A stretch of DNA of 64,000 bases from NCBI GenBank assembly GCA_947184155.2, contig CAMXCT020001779.1, positions 334,956-398,955 of the forward strand, given 5' to 3'. The position numbers and the translations under genes were made by a program. Origin of the DNA: Cladocopium goreaui. Its lineage: Eukaryota; Sar; Dinophyceae; Suessiales; Symbiodiniaceae. Shown here piece by piece: positions 6,684 through 24,900 of the stretch. Each line of letters opens with the position of its first letter. The first letter of the stretch is position 1. Under the pieces are notes generated by a model. The model saw nothing but the letters and a program-made list of their open reading frames with translations, searched no databases and had not been told where the DNA came from.

Positions 6684-8687
6684 GAGTCAAATGGACACTC
6701 GGCCTCGGAGTGCCGGAGGAAGCTTATGAAGTGGATGTGACGTCTGACCTGGGCGACTCAGTGGGATGGCTGAACTTGGAGGATAGAGACGACCCACGTT
6801 TGACCCGACTTTTGTTGTGGGTATACCAATCCCACGTGCACAAGGTCACTGGAAATGATGTGCTTTGGAACGAGGAACTCGTTTTTCTTGTCAAGGATTC
6901 GCGTTTACAACAGGCTCCCCATTGGGAAGTCGATTTGAAAGTTTTTTCCATTTGGGACCAGTGCGACTGTCAGGTCAAATTCAGACTGGCTCCCAAAGAC
7001 TCTTGATGAGTTCAATTCAATGTGTTTGCCAAAGATTTTTGTTTATAGCTATGCTCCTACGTTTCAGCCTGGGATGAAATTGGTGCAATATCCGAAAAAA
7101 GGAAATTGTCTCTGGGGCAGGGCCTATGAAAAATGGATGGGACTATAACCCCCCCAATAAGAATGGGAAAGTTTTCAAAACCCGGAATCCGGGAAACGTA
7201 CTCAATCGAGGAAACGCACTCAATCCAAGAAACGTACTCAATCCAAGAATCGTGCTCAATCCAAGAAACGCACTCAATCCAGGAAACGTTCTCAATCCAG
7301 GAAACGTTCTCAATCCAGGAAACGTTCTCAATCCAGGAAACGTTCTCAATCCAGGAAACGTTCTCAATCCAGGAAACGTTCTCAATCCAGGAAACGTTCT
7401 CAATCCAGGAAACGTTCTCAATCCAGGAAACGTACTCAATCCAGGAAACGTTCTCAATCCAGGAAACGTTCTCAATCCAGGAAACGTTCTCAATCCAGGA
7501 AACGTTCTCAATCCAGGAAACGTTCTCAATCCAGGAAACGTTCTTTTAACTTTCGGGGAGCACAGAATGAAGTTGTAAAAAAGTAGAAAGTATGTTGGCC
7601 ATAACGAATGCGAATGTGAGATTTATGAAGCTAAAACCGTGGAAGGTGTGCAAAAACGACATCGTTCTTTTTGGAACGTACTTTTTACTTTTGCAGAGTT
7701 GATGGAGGCGATGTGGAAATGGGATGGGGCTGCTGGGTGGGGAACTCAATCCAGGAAACGTACTCAATCCAGGAAACGTTCTCAATCCAGGAAACGTTCT
7801 CAATCCAGGAAACGTTCTCAATCCAGGAAACGTTCTCAATCCAGGAAACATACTCAATCCAGGAAACGTACTCAATCCAGGAAACGTTCTCAATCCAGGA
7901 AACGTTCTCAATCCAGGAAACGTTCTCAACCCAGGAAACGTTCTCAATCCAGGAAACGTACTCAATCCAAGAAACGTTCTCAATCCAGGAAACGTACTCA
8001 ATCCAGGAAACGTTCTCAATCCAAGAAACGTACTCAATCCAAGAAACGTACTCAATCCAAGAAACGTTCTCAATCCAAGAAACGTTCTCAATCCAGGAAA
8101 CGTTCTCAACCCAGGAAACGTTCTCAATCCAGGAAACGTACTCAGATCCTACATCAGTCTGTGTGGTCAATACATTGCCAACTTACCTTTGTTTGTCCAT
8201 TTGTGGGGCCATGATTTGTCAAGTACCACCTGAGTAGTAGTCCTGGTAGATAAGCCCTGAACCCTGACATATGTCTTTGCCTCGGCAGCGAACCTTGGAT
8301 GACTTCGTGAAGGGTGAGGCCAAGCGGCGCAAGCCGGATCTCTCCAGCAGCTCTAGTACAACTTCAAGTGCAGCCTTGGCACTCGAGGATGTGGATGGCC
8401 TGGGCACCCACGAACCTCGGCTGTTTGATCGAAATTCTTGTCCAGACTCCCATGACCCCGAGCAGGGTGTGCTTAGCTTTGTCCCCATGATCAAGAAGCG
8501 TAAGCGAACCATGACCGAGATCTACCAATTGATCCCTGAAGACCACCGCATTTGGACTGAGGGGTGGACGTGTATGAAAGGGTGTGATTGCTGGTTTTGT
8601 GAGATTTATCTCGGAGAAATCATTGTTGTGAAAGATCCTCACGAAACCAGCTCTAGCGATCCCTTGGCTGAATCAGACAGCCAATAA
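6684..8687 (+). CDS. 3' exons of an unidentified gene; PIP-box-like motif and basic patch
   Basis: Two exons are read. 6684-6973 follows a CCGCCCAG acceptor. It reads VKWTLGLGVPEEAYEVDV, then a charged stretch, and ends CDCQ before GTCAAA. 8289-8687 follows CTCGGCAG in matching phase and runs to TAA at 8685-8687. The second exon starts RTLDDFVKGEAKRRKPD, then a Ser-rich linker, then KKRKRTMTEIYQL, a Cys-rich stretch (CMKGCDCWFC) and the tail SDPLAESDSQ. With the Gln of the preceding exon the start reads QRTLDDFV, close to a PCNA-binding PIP box but without the final aromatic. KRRK and KKRKR could be nuclear-localisation signals. The intron carries two 18-bp minisatellite arrays. The 5' exons are not identified. 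Confidence 0.5.
7180..7546. repeat. 18-bp minisatellite array 1, about 20 copies
   Basis: The unit CAATCCAGGAAACGTTCT is repeated head to tail. Early copies vary (GAGG, AAGA, CGCA, CGTA) and later copies are nearly identical. Because 18 is divisible by 3 and the unit has few stops, long meaningless frames (QSRKRS, NPGNVL, SIQETF) open on it. It lies in the intron between exons 6684-6973 and 8289-8687. Confidence 0.95.
7742..8144. repeat. 18-bp minisatellite array 2, about 22 copies
   Basis: This is the same unit as the array at 7180-7546, separated from it by about 195 bases of unique sequence. Variants with CAAG for CAGG cluster at about 7960-8090. That suggests local block duplication inside the array. 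Confidence 0.95.
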
Positions 8688-9102
8688 TTCATTTTAAGAT
8701 ATGGATATGTGGCAGTAAACTGTCAAAGTAATTCAGCTAATTGCTTCTTTGTTTCGGAGCAGTTTCAATTCATTGACAGATGCAGCAGAGCAAACTAGCA
8801 GCAAAAGAACATCTTAGGCCTACTGCATATGGTTTAGGAGGTGTATTCCTATCAATCTACAAGTCAGTGGTTGTATGCGAGAGGTAAGGGAAATAAAGCA
8901 CAAGATTCATTGCAGAAGTACGATTGGAACCTGATGCACTTGATGAAAGGTGACAATTCCTAGCCGGAACCCTCATGGAAGGACATCAGCATAAACAATC
9001 ACATACATATACTCTGTGATTTCATCAGCTTTGTTCCAAACACCACAGCCTTGAACATCATTTAGCAAATGCGGTTTGTTTCAAATCAAAGGTCTGGCTC
9101 AG
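8688..9102. other. Gap between genes, nothing recognised
   Basis: No codon-biased frame or repeat was seen in these 415 bases. Confidence 0.35.
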
Positions 9103-9288
9103 TCTTTGCCCAACCTGCCGCTTGGGGTGTCGGCGGCGGTGGCAGAGATGGAGGTAGAACAACTAGCAATAGTTCCTCACTTGGGGGATGAGGATGATAC
9201 AATGAATGGAGTCATGGAGCCTTTTCCGGCTGGCGACCGTGTCTCAAATTGTGCCAGCCTGTCCCAGGATATGTTGGGTGGAAAATGA
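9103..9288 (+). CDS. Candidate exon of an unidentified gene
   Basis: An AG acceptor after TCTGGCTC at 9091-9100 is followed by SLPNLPLGVSAAVAEMEVEQ, then an acidic stretch (GDEDDTMNG), with stop at 9286-9288. The first 20 codons have GC-rich third positions, the rest less so, so the exon may end earlier. It could be an upstream exon of the gene at 16330-23321, with the retroelement in the intron between, or a short gene of its own. The link is inference. Confidence 0.35.
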   Translation, partial: SLPNLPLGVSAAVAEMEVEQLAIVPHLGDEDDTMNGVMEPFPAGDRVSNCASLSQDMLGGK

Positions 9289-9572
9289 AATGTTGAAACG
9301 TGACAGTTATGATTCACACAATGTTGGTAGATGATTTTGATTATATATATTCACACTGATCCTTTTTCAACAAAAATCATATGATATTGTTGTCACATCC
9401 AGGCACGTCAGCCTGGCTTCGCCAGCCTTCACTGTGTTGTCGAGTCTTGAGTTCTTTCTTTTCACCGGCAGCACTCCAAACTCAAGTAATTGGGAAGCCT
9501 TCTCAAGGCTTAGCAGCTGGGAAATCTAGTTTGATTTGCCAAGCCGTTCTAAATTCAACTCTGTGTCCCACC

Positions 9573-10775
9573 CTACCCTTCACGGGCGGGCGGGCTCGGG
9601 TGCATTGCTGCGGGTGTGTCTGGCAGCCTAGCATCACAGGCAACATGCAAAAGACGAAGAAACAAATCCCCCAACACCTTTACGCGGTCACGATTTTTTT
9701 GGGGAAATCGGATCCAAATCTCAGATGCACCTAATTCCTGTACATACGTTTCTAACATCTTGTACGATTTCCATCTACCTCTCCACTGTACTCTGGTCAA
9801 GTCTTCATTAAACTTCCTAAAGAGAAAGGTAGCCCCCCCCGGTCTCAGGGAAGAAGGTTGGAACACACAACACTGAAGGACTTCCTGCTGCACCAACTCA
9901 AGGCGAGTCTTGAAGGAGCTGACAGAACCACACCAAAGTTTTCTCCACATCGGCATTGAGCCCAGGATCAGCTGTACCCAAGCAGCAACGCCTGTTTCGT
10001 CGATGCGCACGTGCTGCGCCATTGCAGCACGAAAGCGCGTCTTCGGCTGGCCTATTCGAACGTACAAGACTTGCGGTTCCCAGTGGTCCTGTGGAAGTGA
10101 CAGGTCTCGTCGTCGCAAGCCAACAAGCTCTGAGGGTCTCAGTAAGCCAAAATAGCCTATGACCAGCAGGGCCGCAAAATGCGGCCAATTCCAGGCCAGA
10201 GCAGTACTTGCAAGCGCAAGAACGACTTGCAAAGGCATTGGTGGGTGGTGTGTCACTGGCTCCAACATATCCCACGTCTTCAGCACATTCCACGGCGCAG
10301 CAAGAGAGGATCGAAGCCAGCCAAATTGTTGGACCACCGCATTGAGACTCTCCGCCGCGGAGCGACGGCTTGCCCCCTCCAGATACAAGGTGACCATATA
10401 TTCTTCGAGCCACTCTGACAAAACATCTATGTGGTGCCGTGCCAAGAGCTCCAGAGAAGTGTCCGGAAGCTGTTCGGCCAACCACGTTTCCAGTTTGTTG
10501 AGCAGCCCTTGTCGAATGCTTCGAGTCCGCTCGGTGATCCTGCCTCTTTCGATCAATGAGCGATCTCGAAGGTGAACTGCTGGGGGCCGCGGCGCTGCCA
10601 CTAGCGGACAAAAGCAACACGCCAACAAACAGATACCAACGATTAAGGGCCCTAGAGAGCCCCTGCAGGCCATCCAACTTGCTGGCAGCCTGACGGCTGC
10701 CCTGGCGCAGTGCCCAAAACCACTTAGGCAAAGGGGTGCGAGCGCCCAGCACCTTGCGGCCCCTGCTTGGGCCAT
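9573..10775 (-). CDS. Tyrosine recombinase of the DIRS-like element
   Basis: The frame has 400 codons from ATG at 10775. Its first 45 or so codons overlap the RNase H frame and may not be used; the protein probably starts near 10640. The recombinase core is seen at residue 213 (Arg in GLLRPSELVGL, box I), residues 308-311 (SSLR in SSLRPGGATFLF, box II), residue 335 (Trp in RGRW) and the likely nucleophile Tyr344 in ETYVQE. The usual His of HxxR is Ser here. These enzymes cut and rejoin DNA through a 3'-phosphotyrosine and would insert a circular cDNA copy of the element. The frame is open to its stop at 9573, so the enzyme could still be intact, although the His-to-Ser change may weaken it. 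Confidence 0.75.
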   Translation of the reverse strand: MAQAGAARCWALAPLCLSGFGHCARAAVRLPASWMACRGSLGPLIVGICLLACCFCPLVAAPRPPAVHLRDRSLIERGRITERTRSIRQGLLNKLETWLAEQLPDTSLELLARHHIDVLSEWLEEYMVTLYLEGASRRSAAESLNAVVQQFGWLRSSLAAPWNVLKTWDMLEPVTHHPPMPLQVVLALASTALAWNWPHFAALLVIGYFGLLRPSELVGLRRRDLSLPQDHWEPQVLYVRIGQPKTRFRAAMAQHVRIDETGVAAWVQLILGSMPMWRKLWCGSVSSFKTRLELVQQEVLQCCVFQPSSLRPGGATFLFRKFNEDLTRVQWRGRWKSYKMLETYVQELGASEIWIRFPQKNRDRVKVLGDLFLRLLHVACDARLPDTPAAMHPSPPAREG

Positions 10776-12534
10776 CAGCTCTCAAAGACCAAGTTGGGAA
10801 GTGAATGCTGGCCACATGCAAATTTTTGCCTAGCAAAAAAGGGGCTTCAGATCGCATGAGTCTGTTTAAGGCAGCAGAGGGACTTCGACCCTTTCCTAAG
10901 GAACCAATATTAACACGACTATCTTGGGCCACCACAAGTCTTTTATCCCTTCCAATTCTTTTAAACAACGTCCTACGGGCTTTGGTTTCCTGTAAATTAA
11001 TATGTTCTTTTTGGCGAAACTCATACTGCACCCATGGTTTCCAAGTCAGCCCTTCCGACAACTGCACGGCCCACAGAGCCGAACCCCCCTTAGGACGGCG
11101 TCTGCCGCTGTCCCCAAAAGGTTTCAAACAAAAATCCGCATCTTGGACTAACGAGCTTTGATCCAAGAAGGGGGCGTTGTAGGGAATGTCACCGACACCA
11201 TCCTCCCAGAATGGTTGGGCGTGAGAATGCTCCCAAGCTTTCCAGAGGCTAGCAACCCGATCGCAAAAATATTCGGAATAAGCCGCAGCATTCGTAGTAT
11301 CCCCTCCATTAAGCACCAGGTGTTTCCTCTGGTTATGATGACAGCATCTTCGGCCTAATTTCTTAAGAGGCACAAAATTCGAAATCAAACAAGTTGTTTT
11401 TCTGAAGTTTCGACCAAAACGACACCAATCAAACAAGACTTCGAAAACATTTTCCCGACGAGACAACACGCGCCATGCCCCCAAAGCCCTGATAAGACTG
11501 GTAGCAGCCACCTCACCTGCCATGAAGAGCCCAAGCGTAACCTGAACCAACGCCAACAGGGCGCACTGACAAGCGTGCAGATTACCTTTCACCACACAAT
11601 CCGCAAGCACATCCAAACCCCAAGGCGCCTCCGCAGACCTCACCCTCGCAGCCTGCGACGAGGAAAACGTAGCACCAGGAGGGGCCCACCACAGAAACCG
11701 GACCTTTCCAGCCCTGACAAAAGACAAGAGGCCAAAAAACAACTCAGGGTCAAGGAGGTCCCAACCTTGTTTCACCTCGAGCGGCGGCAAGACCTTGAAA
11801 CCTTTAGCCTTCCACGCATGAGACATTTGCGCACCTCCAGCATAAACTTCCAACAAGTCAAAAGGAAACTCAAACAACGCCAAAGACGGATCAGCCAACA
11901 TCACGCGATGTTCAAAAACAACTTCCAAACTCCCATGCATTTGCCCCACACTAGCAGACCCCCTGCCTTCATCACCCGTAGACTCCTCCTCACTCAAAAC
12001 CGCCTCCTCATCCCAGCCACTGCCCTTCAAACTCGACTGCAGCCTGGACAGCAAAGGCATTCGATAACCCACCTTGTCACCACGACGCCACAACTCCCCA
12101 GACACTTCAACCCCGACTTCAGCCCGACACACCCCCGCACCAGACGGAGAGGCATCAACACAATAAAGAAAAGAATCAGGAAGAGCCCTGGCATCGCACA
12201 CGCAGAGCGGGGCGCAACTAGCCAGCACCATCAATTCGTTCCGGGCCCCCTGGGTCAGTTTAAACAAATCCTCGGGTCCCCCGGGAGAAAGTTGGTGATA
12301 GATATCATACATGAAAGCAAAAAGGGGTCGGCGAAATTGGAGATTAAAAGCCCATAACCCCGTTATAGCTTCAACCAGTTTCTGGTCAACTGGGCCACTT
12401 TTTGCCATTGAAACCGACAACTGTGCAAGTCGTAGGAGCTTACAGCGGGAAGGGCCGATGAGGCCGGCCTTACCTTCTATTTCCGCTCCCCAAACTTTTT
12501 GTGTGCAAAGACCTTCGGACTTTCTTACCTTCAT
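10560..12534 (-). CDS. RNase H with embedded cytosine-methyltransferase-like segment
   Basis: The frame starts at 12534 and stays open to 9898, but beyond about 10560 it is only a shadow of the recombinase. Residues 123-140 (LYCVDASPSGAGV) give the first RNase H Asp. Residues 509-545 (EHINLQETKAR, then VVAQDSRVNIG) give the Glu and second Asp. Residues 579-590 (FPTWSLRADGPS) give the last Asp. Between them, residues 226-410 look like a C5-cytosine methyltransferase: DLLEVYAGGA resembles the SAM-binding DLFAG motif, WWAPPGATFS resembles the catalytic GPPCxxFS loop, and FDWCRFGRNFRKTTCLISN resembles a later motif with an R-K-P-T-like core. The catalytic Cys is replaced by Gly (PPG). The N-terminus continues the RT thumb in a shifted frame. 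Confidence 0.65.
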
Positions 12535-14014
12535 GGGTCCTCAAGTCAACTGAATTATAGGCAGCTGTAGCTGCTTCAAATACCTGCTGATCGCGACCCT
12601 CTTGGGCCAGTGTGGTGACTTCATCACCTTTCCAAGGCAACAATTGTACCCCCAAGTGATCGTCAATCATTATGCCCTCATAGTAACCGCTTTCAGGTTT
12701 TGGGAGGGGGTGTCTGTAATTCAAGGTTTCTTCTGGGAGAAAGGTGCCCCAACTACGCAACAAATTAACATGACTTTCTTGAGCTATGTCAACCGCGGCA
12801 TGGTCACCCATTCCTAAACCCTTGAAACAACACACCAATCTGTCACCAGTTGTGATCCGGTTCGCTGCCAGTGCTGCTTGCGCAGCTTTCAAATGTGCCA
12901 CCTCACCCCACCGAAAACTAGGCCCTACAGGACTACTCCGGGCTCTTTTCTCAGTTGCCACATAAGCATGATAAAAATCTCGGATATCATCAACAGAACA
13001 AGCACACACCAAATCACGACCTAAGGGCAACTGAGTCAAAAGCACAGCATGGGGAAGATTTCGGGATTCACCTACCACATGATACTCGCGTCTGTTTCGG
13101 CGTTTGCGGTGCAAAATTTGACGGTCCCTATCGACATCTTTAGCGACAGCAAACAACTCACAACGATCCAAAAAATTCACCTCATCAGTTTTGCAAACAA
13201 AAAGTCTTTCCAATTGATCCCAACGGGCAAACACCTTCAACAGTTCAGTTCGAGACGCGGTACCCTTTATATGTATTGGGGGAGGCATATCTTCCGGGGT
13301 CTTTAACAAGGTATCAGGGTCTTCAAAAATAGTGCGACATTTCTCACTCAAGTACGGCCTTGGGTCAAAATTCTCAACTTTGTCAGGCAAACTCAAACGA
13401 TCTGCGACCACCGGAAGCGCTTTGGTAGCTGCAAAAGCAGCTCCCTGAGAGCTTTCACCAAACTGTCTTTTGTGACGGGCATATGGCAAACTGTCTAAAG
13501 CATCTAATTCAGACCTCAACTCACTCAAATGAGTTCCAACTGCTGGTAGCCGGAGGCCGCATCCAGACTCAGAAGTGCCCAGGCGGACCATCGACCTGCT
13601 CAGCTTCAAAAGGAAATGAACCATCTCCTCTTGTGCCTGGTTGAGTTTACACTCACGCCTCCCCCGCTCAGGAGCTACTTGCACTCCCAGGGCCTGATGG
13701 CTCAAAGCACACACCATCAGGTTCGTCCACAATTCAATGGACCTCCGAAAGCGGAACCTAGCAGCTCTTCGGCGAGAACGTCCTTGAAGAGGACCTTTAT
13801 CACAACTCCAAGGGAAAGGAGGCGGGCACGGAAAGAGCTCCTTGTCCGAAGCTCGTGGCGGTGGAGTAGCTGCTGGAGTAAAAGTACTCCGCACATAACG
13901 CGAAAAAGGCAGTGATGAATCTGTCATTGAATCAATCACATGTTCCAACCATGCTGCAACGGATGCACCCTGGTCAGATGAAAAAGAAAAGCTTTCTCCG
14001 GAATGCTCTTGCAT
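12470..14014 (-). CDS. Reverse transcriptase of the DIRS-like element
   Basis: The start is taken at ATG 14014, 15 bases after the gag stop at 14029. The frame is open upstream to 15967, but there it only reads gag out of frame. RT motifs are clear: motif A in CSVDDIRDFYHAY, motif B in FKGLGMGDHAAVDIAQ, and the catalytic motif C in EGIMIDDHLG (about 12661-12672). The last 20 codons are out of frame: the natural continuation THEGK... GLCTQKVWG lies in the frame of the next coding segment, so a frame change occurs near 12530. The enzyme copies the element RNA to DNA. Confidence 0.75.
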   Translation of the reverse strand: MQEHSGESFSFSSDQGASVAAWLEHVIDSMTDSSLPFSRYVRSTFTPAATPPPRASDKELFPCPPPFPWSCDKGPLQGRSRRRAARFRFRRSIELWTNLMVCALSHQALGVQVAPERGRRECKLNQAQEEMVHFLLKLSRSMVRLGTSESGCGLRLPAVGTHLSELRSELDALDSLPYARHKRQFGESSQGAAFAATKALPVVADRLSLPDKVENFDPRPYLSEKCRTIFEDPDTLLKTPEDMPPPIHIKGTASRTELLKVFARWDQLERLFVCKTDEVNFLDRCELFAVAKDVDRDRQILHRKRRNRREYHVVGESRNLPHAVLLTQLPLGRDLVCACSVDDIRDFYHAYVATEKRARSSPVGPSFRWGEVAHLKAAQAALAANRITTGDRLVCCFKGLGMGDHAAVDIAQESHVNLLRSWGTFLPEETLNYRHPLPKPESGYYEGIMIDDHLGVQLLPWKGDEVTTLAQEGRDQQVFEAATAAYNSVDLRTHEGKKVRRSLHTKSLGSGNRR

Positions 14015-14028
14015 GAAATCTTCACGCT

Positions 14029-15567
14029 TTACTCTGGCTTCTTCTCGTCCTTGGCTTTGCCATCTCCTTTTCCTCCTCCTTTTCCTCTTTTCTTTAGCAA
14101 CCACTCTTCCTCCTTCAGCTCGTTGATGATGGCTCCAATCCATGTCGCGTCCATCAACCGCGTGTAGATGTATTGTTTTCGGATGGAAGCGAGGTCCTGA
14201 CTGGCCCAATGGGACCATGGAGGCTCCTCTACGCCTGTCAGGCGACTTGCCACCCCCCAAGACTCGTCCAGCAGGAATTGTTCCATTGCAGATATCATTC
14301 TGACACAGTGAAGACGGGCATGTCTCTGCTTCCCTTCCAGCATCAATTTGTGAATGGTAGCAAAGCCGCTCAGTGCATACCCTGCTGTCCGCGAGCGGCC
14401 TACAGGCACTGAACGAATGAACTTCTCGGGGATCAACGGGCCCATTTCTTCGGCCCCCACCGCCCGCTGCATGCGAGCTTCCATCCTTTCCAAGTAGGCG
14501 CCCGGGTTTTGCTTCATGGCATACCGGAGCTTTTCCACTGCCTCGATGGCTTTTCCTCCGCGACTGGTAGAAGACCAGGTTTCTCCCTCCTCCTCGGAAG
14601 AGCTGCCGTTCGTGCCCACCAGGCCCGGAAGTTTCTTGTTCTTCCTGCTGCCTTTTGCTTGCATTTCCTTCATGAGCTTCAGCATGCTGATTTTCATCAT
14701 GTCGTCGACTGACGGGCCCGAAGAAGACTGGGCCATGTCTGGAACGACCAGGTTGATGCAATCTTGAGCCGTAATCCGAGAGGCTGGCTCGTCTGCAATT
14801 CTCTCTGGCCGAGAGCCCACCTCTTCTCGCATGGCTCGCAGAATTTCGGCCATGTCCTTGTCGTTGGGACCGTCGATTTGCGGAGGCGCGGCTTGTGTCT
14901 TGGCGGTCGCTTTCCTTTGAGGAGCTGGTGTCTTCACAGTCTGCAGATTTGGGTGCTTTTGAAGCTCCTCCACGCGCTTCTCCAGCTTTGCTAGGACAGC
15001 CACCACAGCCTTCAGGTCGGCTTGGGGTGCCGGATTCTCCTCCTCTTCCAAAGCTGTTTGCCAGTCCGCATCTCGGAGGGATCCACTTGTGACCCATTCG
15101 TCTACTGCATCGTCCAACTCCGCCATGTCCGGGAGCTGCTGGGCCTCTGCAAAACGCAGGTACGGCCTTCGAGTCCGAGGAGCTTTCCTTTCCAGCTGTT
15201 GTCGGATGCCCATTGTGAACTCCAACAACAGCACCTCCACTGCATCCCCTAGGCTCTCTTCTGCTTGGAGAGAAATGGTGACATGAAGGCTGGGTCCCAA
15301 AATGTCTTCGGGAGAAGCCTCTTGGCCTTGGCTCAAATCCTCGTCGGGAATTCCGTTCCCCGGTACTGCTAGAATCAAGCCACCCCGACTGACCCGACAA
15401 GGCAAAGCTAGCATCCAAACATCCCCCTCCGCAGGCCAGCGAAGAAGCAAGAGGTCGACCTCCTCCAAGTTTTTGTTCACCAACTTGAGGCTCCGGATGG
15501 TTTTCTCTGCAATGGGCATGATCTTCAAGCAAAGGTTTTGGCTGGTGGCCCTCAAGCGCTGCCACAA
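14029..15567 (-). CDS. Gag-like protein of the DIRS-like element
   Basis: The frame has 512 codons. The N-terminal half holds a coiled-coil candidate (LKAVVAVLAKLEKRVEELQKH). The middle is Ser/Glu-rich (GSSSEEEGETWSS). The C-terminal half is a globular helical region (AIEAVEKLRYAMKQNPGAY, then SHWASQDLASIRKQY) and ends in a basic Gly/Lys tail (RGKGGGKGDGKAKDEKK) that could bind nucleic acid. No zinc knuckle is seen. The role is inferred from position 5' of the RT and from the lack of enzyme motifs. The RT frame begins 15 bases after the stop in another frame. Confidence 0.6.
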   Translation of the reverse strand: MWQRLRATSQNLCLKIMPIAEKTIRSLKLVNKNLEEVDLLLLRWPAEGDVWMLALPCRVSRGGLILAVPGNGIPDEDLSQGQEASPEDILGPSLHVTISLQAEESLGDAVEVLLLEFTMGIRQQLERKAPRTRRPYLRFAEAQQLPDMAELDDAVDEWVTSGSLRDADWQTALEEEENPAPQADLKAVVAVLAKLEKRVEELQKHPNLQTVKTPAPQRKATAKTQAAPPQIDGPNDKDMAEILRAMREEVGSRPERIADEPASRITAQDCINLVVPDMAQSSSGPSVDDMMKISMLKLMKEMQAKGSRKNKKLPGLVGTNGSSSEEEGETWSSTSRGGKAIEAVEKLRYAMKQNPGAYLERMEARMQRAVGAEEMGPLIPEKFIRSVPVGRSRTAGYALSGFATIHKLMLEGKQRHARLHCVRMISAMEQFLLDESWGVASRLTGVEEPPWSHWASQDLASIRKQYIYTRLMDATWIGAIINELKEEEWLLKKRGKGGGKGDGKAKDEKKPE

Positions 15568-15899
15568 TCAAGCGCTCTAAGCCCAGCCTCGACCTTGTCA
15601 ATGCAGGGCAGCTACTGCAGGCCTGCGGCGACAAAGGTACAGCGCGCAGTGAGGTAAGAAAAGGTGGCGTAGACGCGGTTGAATGAAGGAAAATGTTCTC
15701 TGAGAGCGTGGTGCAAGGGTCGCAAAGGGGCTCAGCAATCAAAATGTAAGCAAGGCCAAAAAGCAAACACAGCAAGCTCTTCAAACAACTACTTTCCCTC
15801 GGTCTTTGACACCCACACACAGGTGCACGCGTCCGTGCAAACTTGGGCTCTAGCAAAGTGGCCGTGGTGTGGAAATTCAATCCTACTTGCACAGCTTTC

Positions 15900-16163
15900 T
15901 CAGGCACGGTAACGTTGCAATCTATCCTGCCCCGCCAGACCGCCCTCTCTTGGACGAATCTCAGCACCTTCCAGCAGAAAAATTACCAATCGTGACCCTA
16001 GCAGCCGCAAGCGGGGGCTCAGAAGGAATCCAATCACGCAACCACCAAAGCAGAATCCCAAACAAAAGCAAGTGATAGCTAAAAGAATCAGCTCGGCCAA
16101 TCGATATGGGTGATCACACAAGCCGAGCACCGGGCTAACCGCACTCAAAATATCCCTGAGCAT
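15900..16163 (-). CDS. Small hydrophobic ORF at the 5' end of the retroelement
   Basis: This 87-codon frame upstream of gag holds a hydrophobic segment (LILLAITCFCLGFCFGGCV) followed by a basic stretch (SPRLRLLGSRL). That would suit one membrane span. It is in a different frame from gag. It could be the true N-terminus of a longer gag made by a frame change, a separate small protein, or chance. Position and sense agree with the element. Confidence 0.3.
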   Translation of the reverse strand: MLRDILSAVSPVLGLCDHPYRLAELILLAITCFCLGFCFGGCVIGFLLSPRLRLLGSRLVIFLLEGAEIRPREGGLAGQDRLQRYRA

Positions 16164-16329
16164 CCAAACAGAAAGCTACAGACAACACATGTTGACTGCC
16201 CTTCCATGAAAACAATGCCTTTCATGTTTTGTTATGGTAAAATTAGTGGTCAACACTGTTTTGGGATCCCAGTGACAAACAATCTGAGCCCGTGTACTTG
16301 ATGCGCTATTTCAATGCCAGTCCTGCCAG

Positions 16330-19300
16330 GATGCTTGGACGAAGGAAGTGCAGCTACTCCTTCGCGACATGCCTGAAGTCCTTGACGACTCTCCTCATCA
16401 AGAAGCTGCTCGAGAGGAGGCGATCATGCTCTTGAGGAATGTGATTGCGTTGCGGTGGGGCTACATCATAGGATTGAAAGACAAAGTCCCTGGTTCCCAT
16501 TTCAAGTCTTTGGTGGGCGGAATGGTGTCGACTCTGAATACGCTACTTGAGGTTCATGGGCCTCACATTCCCTTTTGCCCGAATCCACCTGACAAACAGC
16601 TTGAATTGGAGAATGAGAATGCCAGCCCAGAGAAACCCCTGCCCCCACCTGATGAAGGCAGCAGTACCACAGCCAGCAGCAAATCCGCACCTCCGAGTGT
16701 ACTGCCACACGACTTCAAGTTCCTTACAGTGCATGTGGACGGCAAGAGTGAAGTTTGGACATGTCTGCAGGCAGGGGTAATTACCGTCCCTCATAATGTG
16801 GGCTGATATCCATCAAATTTCATGGGGAATACGGAATACAAATATAATTGGGAAAAGCTTCGTTTACTTAGCTGCACCGAATCAGAATAGAACTGATCAA
16901 ATATTATTGGGAAAAGCTTCGTTTACTTAGCGGCCCCGAATGAGAATAGAAATGATTACCATGAATGAAGCAACCATTGGTTGAACCCACAGATTGATAA
17001 ATATATTGATACGCCTTTCCTGTTCTGGTTTGGCCCTAAAGTGCGCCACAGGTGCCATCAGTGTGGGGAGTTGATGGGTATGTGAACTTCTACGGGATGA
17101 GCGAAGTTTGGATGTACAAGACCAAATTTTTCGCGTGGTACACCAAGTCTTTCAACGAGTTCTACTTGCCGACAGCCGCGTTTCTGGAAATGTCCCCTGG
17201 TCATGTATCTGGATATCTGATTAACAATCGATTTTGGAGGTAGGATTTGTCATAAAGAATTCCTTCGTGCAGATGCTCCTGATGTCTCCCATTATTGAGT
17301 TGGTGGACTAACTCAGGGACCCATAACTAAAATCCACCGAATGATTTATCCAATGACTTAGCTCAAAATTAGAATTCCTAAGGTCATGAGACGAAGCACT
17401 TACAGAGGAGATGACAAGCCGACCCACTATCTCCCGGTGGATGCGGCTTCTGTCATGGGTATTGTGTGTGTGGTGGGCAGCATACTGCCAGCAAAATCTC
17501 TGGCTCGCGAAGCTATGCTGATCTCAGTCACGACTCTCAAGAAGATGGAATCATGCGTGGAAAACCCAGAGAGAGAGTTGGTTGCTCCCCTGCGAAACGG
17601 GGATAAGCTCAGGTTGGAGACTAGGTCCACTGGCTTGTTTGCTTTGTCCGACCTCAAACACTTTTTCAAGAAGCTGGGAATCGACTTTACCAGGTTCGGG
17701 ATGTTTAGGTTGTTTGGATTTAGTGGAACAAACAACTGATGTTAAGAACATATACTGTTGTTGGGGATACCCAAAGGATATAAAGTCAATGACGTCAGAC
17801 ACTTTGAACATAGGGTTCCAATCTCTCCTTTCATTCCCCATCTAGGTTCAGCAAAAAATTGCCATCAGATGCTGCGGAAGTTGGCATCCCCGAGATTATC
17901 TGCACCATGTTTCGAATGAGGTGTGATCCTTCGAGCCAAGATCCGAATTCACCCATGAACCGCTTTCTGTTCAGACTAGTTCACAAATGGTGTCAGAAAG
18001 TTGAAGCATCAATGGAACAGAAACTGCAGGAGACCTGTCCAGATCCCAGCGTTGGGGCACGAGTTCATCTCTTTTTGAAAAGCTCACGGATGAAAGGCAA
18101 CAAAGCTCTCCAGCTCAGCATTGTCGGCCGCTTCTCAGCAAGGAGTGCAGGATTTATGACTACCAAGAACACGACCTTAGCTTCGCTGGGTGTCCTTCCG
18201 GCCAACAGCAGTCTTGCCCAACGAACGTGCCAGGAGTATGCCATGCGGTACTTGATCAAGTCAAACCAGCACATGAGTGAAGCCCTGTTGCAATCGAAAG
18301 TGGTAAACTTCACCTTTGACGCGGCATTCGTTGCTGAAGAACACGCGGCTTCTTCTTAGCTTATAGTGGGTATTTGTTTTGTGTGCGAACAAGTTGTGCC
18401 TGGGGAACATAGGAAATGCCTCTCAATCCTAGTAAGGCTTGTAAACTCTGTCAGGTGCTCACCGTTGTCTTTCGGTCCATTGGTAAGCAGTTCTCGGGAG
18501 CCACCCAGTTGCTGCCGACTGGTCTCAGTGCTGAGCAGTCACAGAAAGCCTTACAGGCCTTCTGCCAAGCATTCAAGACAATGTACTGCCAGTCTGGTCA
18601 GGTGCCGTCCATCCCACAGAAAATTGACTTTGGGTGGAAGGAATTTCGAGTGCCCACGAAAAACATGCTCATGGGCATTAGCAATGCGCTGGTGCAAATC
18701 ATGCCACCTGATTTCACTTTGCAAAAGTGCATTCCTCCGGTCCGTTTGGTGCCTCGAGCTACTCAAGCTGACCGGCTTCTCTTGACTGATGACGAGAAGA
18801 CAATGCTTGGACTGGGACCTTGGGCCAAAGACTGTGACCTCTACTTTGTCTACAACTACGCCTCACAGACGTGCTTTGTGGACTTTATCGAGGACAACGA
18901 CTTCTACAAGCTGTGCTTTTCAGCGGATGAAGGGACTGAGGACAGGGTTGGGTCATAAAACATGTTGCCACTGGTCTTCTCAGGATGGCAGAAAACACAT
19001 AACAAGGGGTCCTCATTCATAAAAAAATGAAGTTAGTAATCAGTGAGGGTTTAAATGTAGAGAAGCATGTTCTCACGACTGGACCTTCCCTCCAATGTTT
19101 TAGGACATATAACTAACTTTGTAAATACATGTTACGTATGAAGATACATTGCCCACATGTCATATGTGCACTATACACAAATATAATATAATAGTAATGC
19201 ATTTGTGTATCTACATGATCTAGCAAACAGGTTTCACATGATATGCATGCGCTGCAGGGCTTCCTGGTGTTCCTGCACATGAGTTGCTGCGGGGTCTACG

Positions 19301-22300: not shown

Positions 22301-23321
22301 AAGCAGACCAAGAAGAAAAAGGCTGAAGACGGTGAGGACGAGGAGGACAGACTTAGATTGCATGTTTCTGCATTTTCTGTTAGTTGGTAGTTGCGTTTTG
22401 TTCAAAAACTTTGAGGTAATCCTACATGAAACATGACTCCCAACAGTTGTTACCATCCCAATTGTAGGCTTAGGTAGGCGACTCCACCAAGATCGGCGTC
22501 GAGGCTGTTTTCGACCAACTTTACCGTGTTTTATGCTGTTTTTGGCCTCTTCTTTTTTGGGGGGGTTCGGGGGGTGGGGGTGCTAATAGCGTCCTTGCTT
22601 CTGCGTTCCAGGTCATGCTACGTTGCTGAACATCTCTTGCAACTTGCAACGCTCTTGATGCTACGTTGATGAACGTCTCTTGCAACTTGCAACGCTCTTG
22701 ATGCTACGTTGATGAACGTCTCTTGCAACTTGCAACGCTCTTGATGCTACGTTGATGAACGTCTCTTGCAACTTGCCACGCTCTTGATGCTACGTTGCTG
22801 AACGTCTCTTGCAACTTGCCACGCTCTTGATGCTGCGTTGCTGAACCAAAATATGAGGTGCGTTGGAATTGGTCAAGTCGCCTGGCATGGTTGACTAACT
22901 GGGTCAGAAGTGTGGTATGAGTGAACTAGTCCTGTGTTTGTTCAAGCTAGCTCCCACAACTTCTTGCAGTCGCATGACTCGGAGCGGTTTTGTTTTGTGC
23001 TGAAGAAAAGGTATTGAAAAACATGTGGACTATGGAACATTTGACACATCACTGCTGGACCATTCTTATCAGCACAATGTCAAATTTTGTTTACCTCAAA
23101 AGTGTTCACAGACATCCAGCCCCATCCTGCAGAACAACAATCCCATGGAACACTTGGAGGGTGAATCATCGGATGAAGAGCTCGCCGAGTTGCAGCAAGA
23201 AATTGATGATCATCACCATGCCCAAGTCCACGAAATCTTTGCTGCTGCCCAGGAAGCACCAGCAGAGGAGAAGGATGCTGACATGGCTACTCATCTTCAC
23301 GAGAATTGCAGTTTGGGATAA
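16330..23321 (+). CDS. Large multi-exon protein of unknown function
   Basis: Exons read: 16330-16770, 17052-17239, 17391-17693, 17846 to about 18329, 18455-18946, 19258 to about 19606, about 19780-20050, 20333 to about 20420, about 20560-20652, about 20814-21124, 21298 to about 22340, and about 23131-23321 with TAA. Phase agrees at every junction with exact ends, including QVPSVWGVDG, FTRFSKKLPSD and VLKLRYFKFDPAR. The first donor is GC. The product is about 1,000 residues of mainly helical, soluble character with no signal peptide or membrane span. Notable parts are an early EEAIMLLRNVIALRWGY helix, a Trp/His-rich stretch (FSWWDHAAKHDSSWH), a late Lys-rich helix (NQKQRKQTKKKKAED) and an acidic end (GESSDEELAELQQEIDD). 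No family is recognised. Upstream exons may lie beyond the retroelement. Confidence 0.65.
16842..16960. repeat. Tandem duplication of about 59 bp in an intron
   Basis: The string TTGGGAAAAGCTTCGTTTAC occurs twice about 59 bases apart. The full units match apart from several base changes (CTGCACC against CGGCCCC). They lie in the first intron of the large gene. Confidence 0.85.
22617..22847. repeat. 43-bp tandem repeat, five full copies plus part of a sixth
   Basis: The unit begins GCTACGTTGATGAACGTCTC and ends CAACGCTCTTGAT. Copies start at 22617, 22660, 22703, 22746 and 22789, with a partial copy at 22832. They differ at a few sites only (TTGCTG/TTGATG, TGCAACG/TGCCACG). The array lies in the last intron of the large gene. 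Confidence 0.95.
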
Positions 23322-23454
23322 GTTGGCCGCAGCTATCAAAATCACCAGATATTCTTTCGAATCTGATTCCAGTTCCTCTCAATAATAGTAGCTTTGTGCA
23401 TGCGTTTGGCTCGCTGGTGCACAGGATGGTCAGATACGTGTGAGCGCAGGATGT

Positions 23455-23760
23455 CCTGTCATCAAGATCATCATCATCATCATCATCACCATCATCATCA
23501 TCACCATGATCATCATCAACATCATCACCACCATCATCATCATCATCATCACCGCAGACACATCACCAACATCACCACCACGATCATCATCATTATCGTC
23601 TGCATCGCCATCATCACCATCACCATATCACCACCATCATCATTGCCTTCCTCCTCCTCCTCATCATCATCATCATCATCGTCATCATCACCATCATCAT
23701 CATCATCATCATTGTCTTCCTCCTCCTCCTCCTCCTCATCATCATCATCATCGTCATCAC

Positions 23761-23793
<33 letters not shown>

Positions 23794-24085
23794 TGTCTTC
23801 CTCATCATCATCATCATCACCATCATCATCGTCATCATCATTATCGTCATCATCGGCCATCATGATCACCATCATTCTCATCATCAACTTCTTACTTACC
23901 ACCATCATCACCTGAATCATCATCGTCATCATCATCAACTACAAAATGACCACCATGACCATCATTAACATCATCATCATCATGAACAAAATAATCAAAA
24001 CCATCACGATCATCGGTTGTCTTGATCATCAATGTCATCTTGATCATCAACATCACCATGACCATCATGATCATTAACATCATGT
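23455..24085. repeat. CAT/ATC trinucleotide satellite
   Basis: This is a long run of CAT/ATC units with CAC, CGT and CTC variants, becoming less regular after about 23900. All frames read low-complexity His, Ser or Ile runs and none is a gene. It forms the left part of the first composite satellite module. Confidence 0.9.
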
Positions 24086-24149
24086 TCCTTATTTTCCCCT
24101 GTTCCCAAAATTACTGCAAATTACTTTACTTCGTGTGATCCCCACCATG

Positions 24150-24432
24150 ACATTTATATATTTTGTTACTGGCAAATTTTCTGGCATTCTATCTGACATT
24201 TTATCTGGCATTCTATCTGGCATATCTTCTGGCATTCTATCTGGCATATCTTCTGGTATTTTATCTGGCATATCTTTTGGCATTCTACCTGGCATATCTT
24301 CTGGCATATTTTCTGACATATCTTCTGGCATTCTATCTGGCATTCTATCGGGCATATCTTCTGGCATATTATCTGGCATATCTTCTGGCATTCTATGTGA
24401 CATTCCATCTGGCATATCTTCTGGCCTCCTAT
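24150..24432. repeat. 12-bp tandem array, module copy 1
   Basis: The array is built from CTGGCATATCTT and CTGGCATTCTAT units. It follows the conserved leader ATCCCCACCATGACATTTAT at about 24140, which also precedes the second array at about 26930. Confidence 0.9.
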
Positions 24433-24438
24433 CTGGCC

Positions 24439-24745
24439 GTTGAGGTCCAGCGGTGCACACTGAGCTGGGCAGGTCCCCGGTTGAGGTCCAGCGGTGCACA
24501 CTGAGCTGGGCAGCTCACAGGTTGAGGTCCAGCGGTGCACACTGAGCTGGGCAGGTCCCGGGTTGAGGTCCAGCGGTGCACACTGAGCTGGGCAGGTCCC
24601 CGGTTGAGGTCCAGCGGTGCACACTGAGCTGGGCAGGTCCCCGGTTGAGGTCCAGCGGTGCACACTGAGCTGGGCAGCTCACAGGTTGAGGTCCAGCGGT
24701 GCACACTGAGCTGGGCAGCTCGCAGGTTGAGGTCCAGCAGCGCGC
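24439..24745. repeat. 41-bp tandem array, module copy 1
   Basis: Seven or more units start GTTGAGGTCCAGCGGTGCAC, spaced 41 bases (24439, 24480, 24521 and so on). As 41 is not divisible by 3, a frame through the array cycles through three peptides. A related 40-bp unit occurs at 27647-27926. Confidence 0.95.
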
Positions 24746-24779
24746 ACTGAGCTGGGAAGTTGGCGAAGCGCTTGGCGAC

Positions 24780-24900
24780 GAGTTGGCAAGGTTGGCAAGG
24801 CGGAAGTGGAGGTGGAAGAGGCGGAGGCGAGGAGGAGGGCGAGGAGGACAGCTAGTCGAGGAGGAGGAGGAGGAAGAGGCGGCGAGGAAATACTTAAAGG
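24780..24900. repeat. GA/GGC-rich tail of module copy 1
   Basis: A purine-rich run (GAGGAGGAGGAGGAAGAGG and similar) directly follows the 41-bp array. The same kind of tail follows the 40-bp array in module copy 2. Confidence 0.8.

Follow-up and report, generated by a model that had tools for sequence, protein, structure and literature searches.

A predicted C5-cytosine-methyltransferase-like domain within the RNase H of a DIRS-like retrotransposon lineage of Cladocopium goreaui

The window, the whole 64,000-nucleotide stretch of Cladocopium goreaui DNA analysed here, is part of contig C1779. It carries a retrotransposon of about 6.84 kb at 9387..16224, the extent of which is given by two further copies and an empty site. 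The element and its coding features are on the minus strand, and positions are those of the window. An AT dinucleotide is present at both joints of the element (9386-9387 and 16224-16225). A DNA search with window 7000-17500 found the two copies on contigs C2045 and C207, 100% identical after rounding from window position 9386 to 16233 and 16227, respectively. At the empty site, C21:233667/233668, the two sequences flanking the window element (98% and 100% identity) are contiguous and share one AT. Because of the two near-identical copies and the empty site, the lineage of the window, which lacks the catalytic Cys described below, has moved recently, and it did so at an AT dinucleotide.

Tyrosine-recombinase elements carry split direct repeats, and a circle is inserted by the recombinase. 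The left 181 bases of the element (repeat A, 9385..9565) and the right 62 bases (repeat B, 16164..16225), both without assigned strand, have second copies beside the C2045 and C207 elements. The extra repeats A and B are adjacent there and share the same AT. The window copy lacks a second A or B and any direct repeat of 18 bases or longer. Split direct repeats are thus seen at C2045 and C207, and the empty site shows that insertion produced no long target-site duplication. These terminal repeats and the empty site are consistent with a circle having been inserted by a tyrosine recombinase.

The coding region of the window copy consists of three frames. The first, open from stop to stop at 12470..15982, has the reverse transcriptase (RT) at its end. 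Motifs aligned over 20 families place the RT motif A Asp at 12989-12991 and the first Asp of IDDH at 12662-12664. None of 20 members gives a Pfam RT match, and the RT profile against the PDB yields no RT, only a spurious match to 1yir at E 0.42. The second, ORF 9898-12540, encodes the RNase H and the insert, and contains all motif strings cited in the original prediction (VDASPSG, DLLEVYAGGA, WWAPPGATFS, CRFGRNFRKTT and HINLQE). The third frame (9573..10781) has a C-terminal part resembling a tyrosine recombinase, with Arg at 9843-9845, a GRW motif and Tyr at 9744-9746. Of 19 families, at least 90% retain this Arg and Tyr; the position of the box I Arg (10137-10139) varies among them, His being the majority residue. 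PF00589 matches three of the 19 members weakly (best E 0.064), and the recombinase profile against the PDB yields nothing but spurious hits (NUP93A at 0.0081). By the motifs of RT, RNase H and recombinase, the last assigned by motif, the element appears to be of the DIRS-like, tyrosine-recombinase type. An open frame of 2,027 residues in the C2045 copy shows that longer intact copies exist. In L014, L015 and their relatives, the RT, the insert-bearing RNase H and the recombinase-like part share one open frame.

The genome searched comprises 1.17 Gb in 6,202 contigs. It contains the core of the dinoflagellate spliced leader 172 times, against 0 for the reversed control, as expected of a dinoflagellate, and its size and its number of PF00145 matches (125) agree with the values given for Symbiodinium by de Mendoza et al. 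2018 (PMC5890265). A 471-residue stretch gave 133 matches in it, some places giving two. Thirty loci were taken from this search and 30 from a second one with 104 matches. Both end motifs lie in one open frame in 52 of these 60 loci, so that L008, L009, L010, L019, L025, L027, L047 and L049 were dropped. Removal of 20 loci more than 95% alike left 32 families. L028, L034 and L054 are truncated and were excluded from the RNase H profiles; L034 was also excluded from the tree and the CpG test. Six further families of a distant branch, chosen from 150 matches to the insert of L030, bring the set to 38 non-redundant families. All 150 candidates scored, out of 1,368, matched the L030 insert, and about 115 of them, counted by eye, lie in open frames of at least 1,000 residues. 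The insert-bearing family is large in this genome. Relatives were found neither in viral contigs with four queries, nor in prokaryote genome contigs or in phages with one query each. A chance occurrence of the motifs is ruled out by the 133, 104 and 150 matches together with the invariant residues.

The insert covers about 210 residues at 11227..11859, assigned by profile comparison and by motifs that appear in the C5-methyltransferase order. The motif I Glu (in DLLEVYAGGA) is at 11848-11850, the motif II Glu at 11776-11778 and the motif III Asp at 11758-11760. Motif IV (WWAPPGATFS) has Gly in place of Cys at 11674-11676, as the original prediction had stated. The putative motif VI Glu is at 11512-11514. 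A VIII-like block (CRFGRNFRKTT) has its Cys at 11422-11424 and its Lys at 11398-11400, and an X-like Tyr, placed by eye, is at 11278-11280. The motif I Glu, the motif I Gly and the motif II acid do not vary in the 38 families, and the motif VI Glu is present in 37 of them (31/32 in the initial set). Within the initial 32, the motif III Asp is found in 30 and the Cys and Lys of the VIII-like block in all. The six families of the distant branch keep the same residues. Past the VIII-like block, a Cys (37/38) and a His (38/38) are also conserved (window 11254-11360), with CxC...H in many families; they are possibly a metal site.

The likeness to C5-cytosine methyltransferases was examined by profile-profile comparison. 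Profiles of the insert were built from 31 sequences (A5) and from seven short-form and related sequences (A6); the target, A7, comprised Dcm and seven phage C5 enzymes. With hhalign, A5 and A6 match A7 at probabilities of 87.6 and 87.7% and scores of 49.6 and 48.5. Motif I is placed on motif I and PPC on PC. Sixty shuffles of the A7 columns for each profile reach maxima of 18.2 and 16.6, and the reversed controls 23.3 and 24.9. Six Dam-type enzymes score 24.3 and 23.5, near the reversed control, and a Dam-type domain as in DIRS1 was rejected on this ground. Together with the conservation of the motifs, these comparisons bear out the proposed C5-methyltransferase likeness, and the insert is predicted to be a strongly diverged domain of this kind.

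The insert could instead be another Rossmann-type or unknown domain that resembles C5 enzymes at motifs I and IV only. Such a reading draws on the local alignment, which is confident over motifs I-IV alone, and on the silence of Pfam: PF00145 matches 0/31 inserts and 0/17 longer stretches, and NCBIfam does not detect the domain either. Motif VI reads E(Q/T/N)P here versus ENV, and the VIII block has a Lys versus an Arg pair. Yet in global mode the A6 alignment, though not that of A5, sets E.P on ENV and C.FG...K on the PQ.R.R block, and the Dam enzymes behave as the reversed control does. Among 177,635 PDB sequences, the matches at E up to 10 are C5 enzymes only, all weak (4h0n at 0.18, 0.82 and 0.68; 3g7u at 1.8), and A6 matches nothing. 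The spurious PDB matches of the RT and recombinase profiles mean that such weak E-values prove little by themselves. Two PHROGs named DNA methyltransferase match four and one of the 31 members (best E 0.053 and 0.0072), weakly and beside four unnamed PHROGs. On balance, a domain unrelated to C5 enzymes is improbable. AlphaFold2 models from a single sequence have mean pLDDT of 32.7 and 42.4, too poor for a fold. Elsewhere in the genome there are 125 PF00145 matches in frames of 133-558 residues, none of them, by eye, at the places of this family.

The first part of the RNase H (12028..12186) contains the first Asp at 12154-12156 in VDASPSG. The second part (10762..11076) contains the Glu at 10987-10989 in HINLQE and two Asp residues at 10921-10923 and 10774-10776. 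Both parts align with the uninterrupted form. The wide gap between the first Asp and the Glu, put at about 385 residues in the original prediction, is real and measures 389. The four carboxylates D, E, D, D are invariant in 38/38, 38/38, 37/37 and 35/35 families (32/32, 32/32, 31/31 and 29/29 in the initial set). Of the alignment columns of the 38 families that are filled in 30 or more rows, exactly eight are acidic in at least 97%: the four carboxylates of the RNase H, a Glu at the end of the RT and, within the insert, the acids of motifs I, II and VI. In the 32 inserted families the Asp-Glu spacing is 329-414, the Glu-Asp spacing 22-25 and the Asp-Asp spacing 49 residues. Five of the six later families have Asp-Glu spacings of 327-348; the sixth has TDSS, which the search pattern missed.

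The same genome holds sisters that lack the insert. Six of them (L090-L095) were found with a query of the joined halves and chosen for a match spanning the join or for absence from the methyltransferase lists, and hence are not a random sample. All six have the same two RNase H parts joined, and all six have an RT with the motifs of the inserted families. Their spacings are 81-94 (Asp-Glu), 25-26 (Glu-Asp) and 49 residues (Asp-Asp). Relative to these sisters, the inserted forms have about 240-330 additional residues and the window copy about 300. The borders of the insert are imprecise, as the alignment places roughly ten residues from the insert-free forms within it. Because six sisters carry the same RNase H without the insert, the methyltransferase-like domain is placed, by this alignment, inside the RNase H with no carboxylate lost. 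The nesting that had been proposed is thereby upheld. A segment lying past a complete RNase H, the arrangement that would have spoken against it, is less likely, as the sisters carry both halves uninterrupted.

It may still be asked whether the first Asp belongs to another domain, with a whole RNase H past the insert and the methyltransferase between RT and RNase H. Neither form finds a match among cellular and phage RNase HI profiles: the joined halves score 14.9, with shuffles up to 20.0, and the insert-free form 19.5. The insert-free Asp-Glu spacing is also longer than the 38 residues of E. coli RnhA (Glu-Asp 22, Asp-Asp 64). Against an unsplit RNase H, the interval between insert and Glu has no other conserved Asp in the 38 families, and both halves align with the uninterrupted sisters. 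The L090-L095 profile scores 258.5 against the joined halves (probability 100, 161 columns) but 200.0 against the second half alone, so the first half adds to the match. We consider an unsplit RNase H very improbable. Since the RNase HI profiles are silent on both forms, the name RNase H is a putative one that relies on motifs, spacing and the position after the RT. According to both de Mendoza et al. (PMC5890265) and Muszewska et al. (PMC3783388), standard profiles perform poorly in detecting the RT or RNase H domains of elements of this type.

The motif IV Cys is present in 33 of the 38 families (27/32 in the initial set). The other residues are Gly in the window family and L057, Ala in L005, Ser in L006 and Arg in L011; L010, outside the count, has Ala. 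The surroundings of motif IV vary as well (PPC, PVC, PIC, VPC, TPC and LPC). Aligning the copies answers whether PPG is fixed or private: it is found in all three near-identical copies (L001-L003), and the nearest other family, L004, 54% identical, has PPC.

A tree of 31 families was built with the motif IV column removed and long branches flagged. It joins the window family with L004, which keeps the Cys, at support 100/100. The branch sister to this pair (100/100) holds the families with Ala, Ser or Arg. L057, with Gly, groups with L046, with Cys, in a distant clade (99/97). Because the Cys is present in both deep branches, the tree suggests that it is ancestral. If so, the drawn tree would imply at least three losses.

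The dN/dS of the insert is low in families keeping the Cys. Among 16 related pairs, examples are L029/L043 (0.030/0.373), L036/L039 (0.007/0.081), L015/L033 (0.007/0.056) and L012/L013 (0.004/0.025). The Cys-lost copies are too alike for such an estimate: the window copies differ by 0-1 changes in the insert, and L006 differs from L008 by one synonymous change, two non-synonymous changes and one stop in 1,071 bases. The CpG observed/expected ratio is 0.38-0.71 (median 0.63) in 32 Cys-keeping families and 0.54-0.75 in five Cys-lost families. The two groups do not differ in CpG depletion (p 0.37), which speaks against a strong CpG effect.

These data bear on whether the domain methylates in any family. 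It might derive from a C5 methyltransferase and serve throughout to keep the split RNase H and the RT together, as a spacer or by binding nucleic acid. The repeated loss of the Cys while the rest of the domain stays, the recent movement of a Cys-less lineage, the lack of a CpG effect and the varied surroundings of motif IV are in keeping with this reading. However, the Cys in 33/38 and the motif VI Glu in 37/38 families suggest selection for catalysis in most families, and methylation in none of them seems rather unlikely.

We favour, with a probability of roughly 0.6, that a DIRS-like lineage gained a C5-methyltransferase-like domain within its RNase H, that the Cys form methylates the element's own nucleic acid, and that the domain of the window lineage is non-catalytic. 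A dinoflagellate DIRS-like lineage would have taken up the domain after the first RNase H Asp and before the segment with the Glu. In families keeping the Cys, we infer S-adenosylmethionine-dependent methylation of the element's cDNA, RNA-DNA hybrid or RNA. Methylation would occur while RT and RNase H hold the nucleic acid, and would mark it before the recombinase inserts it. The stretch between motifs VIII and X is short, which suggests that the substrate may be presented by the RNase H cleft and not by a large target-recognition domain. Methylation of cDNA was proposed for the Pol-borne Dnmt3 by de Mendoza et al., in the text consulted (PMC5890265). Most probably, the domain started out methylating the cDNA or hybrid of its own element and is non-catalytic in the lineage of the window.

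In that lineage the domain is probably non-catalytic, with Gly for Cys and the acids of motifs I, II, III and VI kept. The kept acids and the recent movement of this Cys-less lineage speak for a non-catalytic role. It may persist as a part of the split RNase H that serves structure or binds SAM or nucleic acids. Cys-less elements could conceivably be served in trans by other elements. A bolder and tentative extension, with the odds against it, is that the RNase H and the methyltransferase are interleaved as a single enzyme, in which the cleft acts as target recognition and passes RNA-DNA hybrid or new cDNA to the methyltransferase, so that cDNA is marked while it is made. The domain would later have become a pseudoenzyme in several lineages, kept as the RNase H is built around it.

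Dinoflagellates are already known to carry retrotransposons with cytosine methyltransferases. SymbioDIRS-Dnmt3 of Symbiodinium (de Mendoza et al. 2018, PMC5890265) is, in the text consulted, likewise a dinoflagellate tyrosine-recombinase element with a cytosine-methyltransferase domain in Pol along with RT and RNase H, and purifying selection acts on that domain. It was found with PF00145, groups with eukaryotic Dnmt3 and keeps the key residues. The present domain, in contrast, is silent in Pfam (0/31), has a short form, lacks the Cys in the window lineage and is predicted inside the RNase H, a comparison that leaves the domain order of SymbioDIRS-Dnmt3 aside. DIRS1-like elements, as described in the text of PMC3783388 and PMC3266345 consulted, also combine RT, RNase H, methyltransferase and tyrosine recombinase in one element. 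Their methyltransferase is a Dam-type N6-adenine enzyme listed after the RNase H, whereas the present domain matches no Dam profile and is placed within the RNase H. In the text of the literature searched (including PMC5890265, PMC6338049, PMC3783388 and PMC3266345), as distinct from figures and supplements, no methyltransferase is described inside an RNase H or another catalytic domain of Pol.

Relative to C5-cytosine methyltransferases such as Dcm and DNMT2 (PF00145), the insert has motifs I-IV in register, the acids of II and III and a putative motif VI Glu. It differs in escaping Pfam, in having no large target-recognition domain, in its altered motifs VI and VIII and, in the window, in the missing catalytic Cys. 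The insert-free L090-L095 share the RT, the two RNase H parts and the spacing after the Glu with the inserted families, and differ in having no methyltransferase-like insert. With inserted and insert-free sisters in one genome, the natural states before and after the insertion can be compared, to ask how a replication enzyme accommodates a foreign domain. The repeated loss of the Cys makes the need for methylation in such elements testable. Because Pfam misses the domain, similar elements may have been counted as DIRS elements free of methyltransferase.

Other repeats of the window lie outside the element. Two blocks of 18-base tandem repeats occur at 7042-8150, and copies of this region are present elsewhere in the genome. 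Several minisatellites, with units of 9-12, 41 and 43 bases, occupy 22572-24800.
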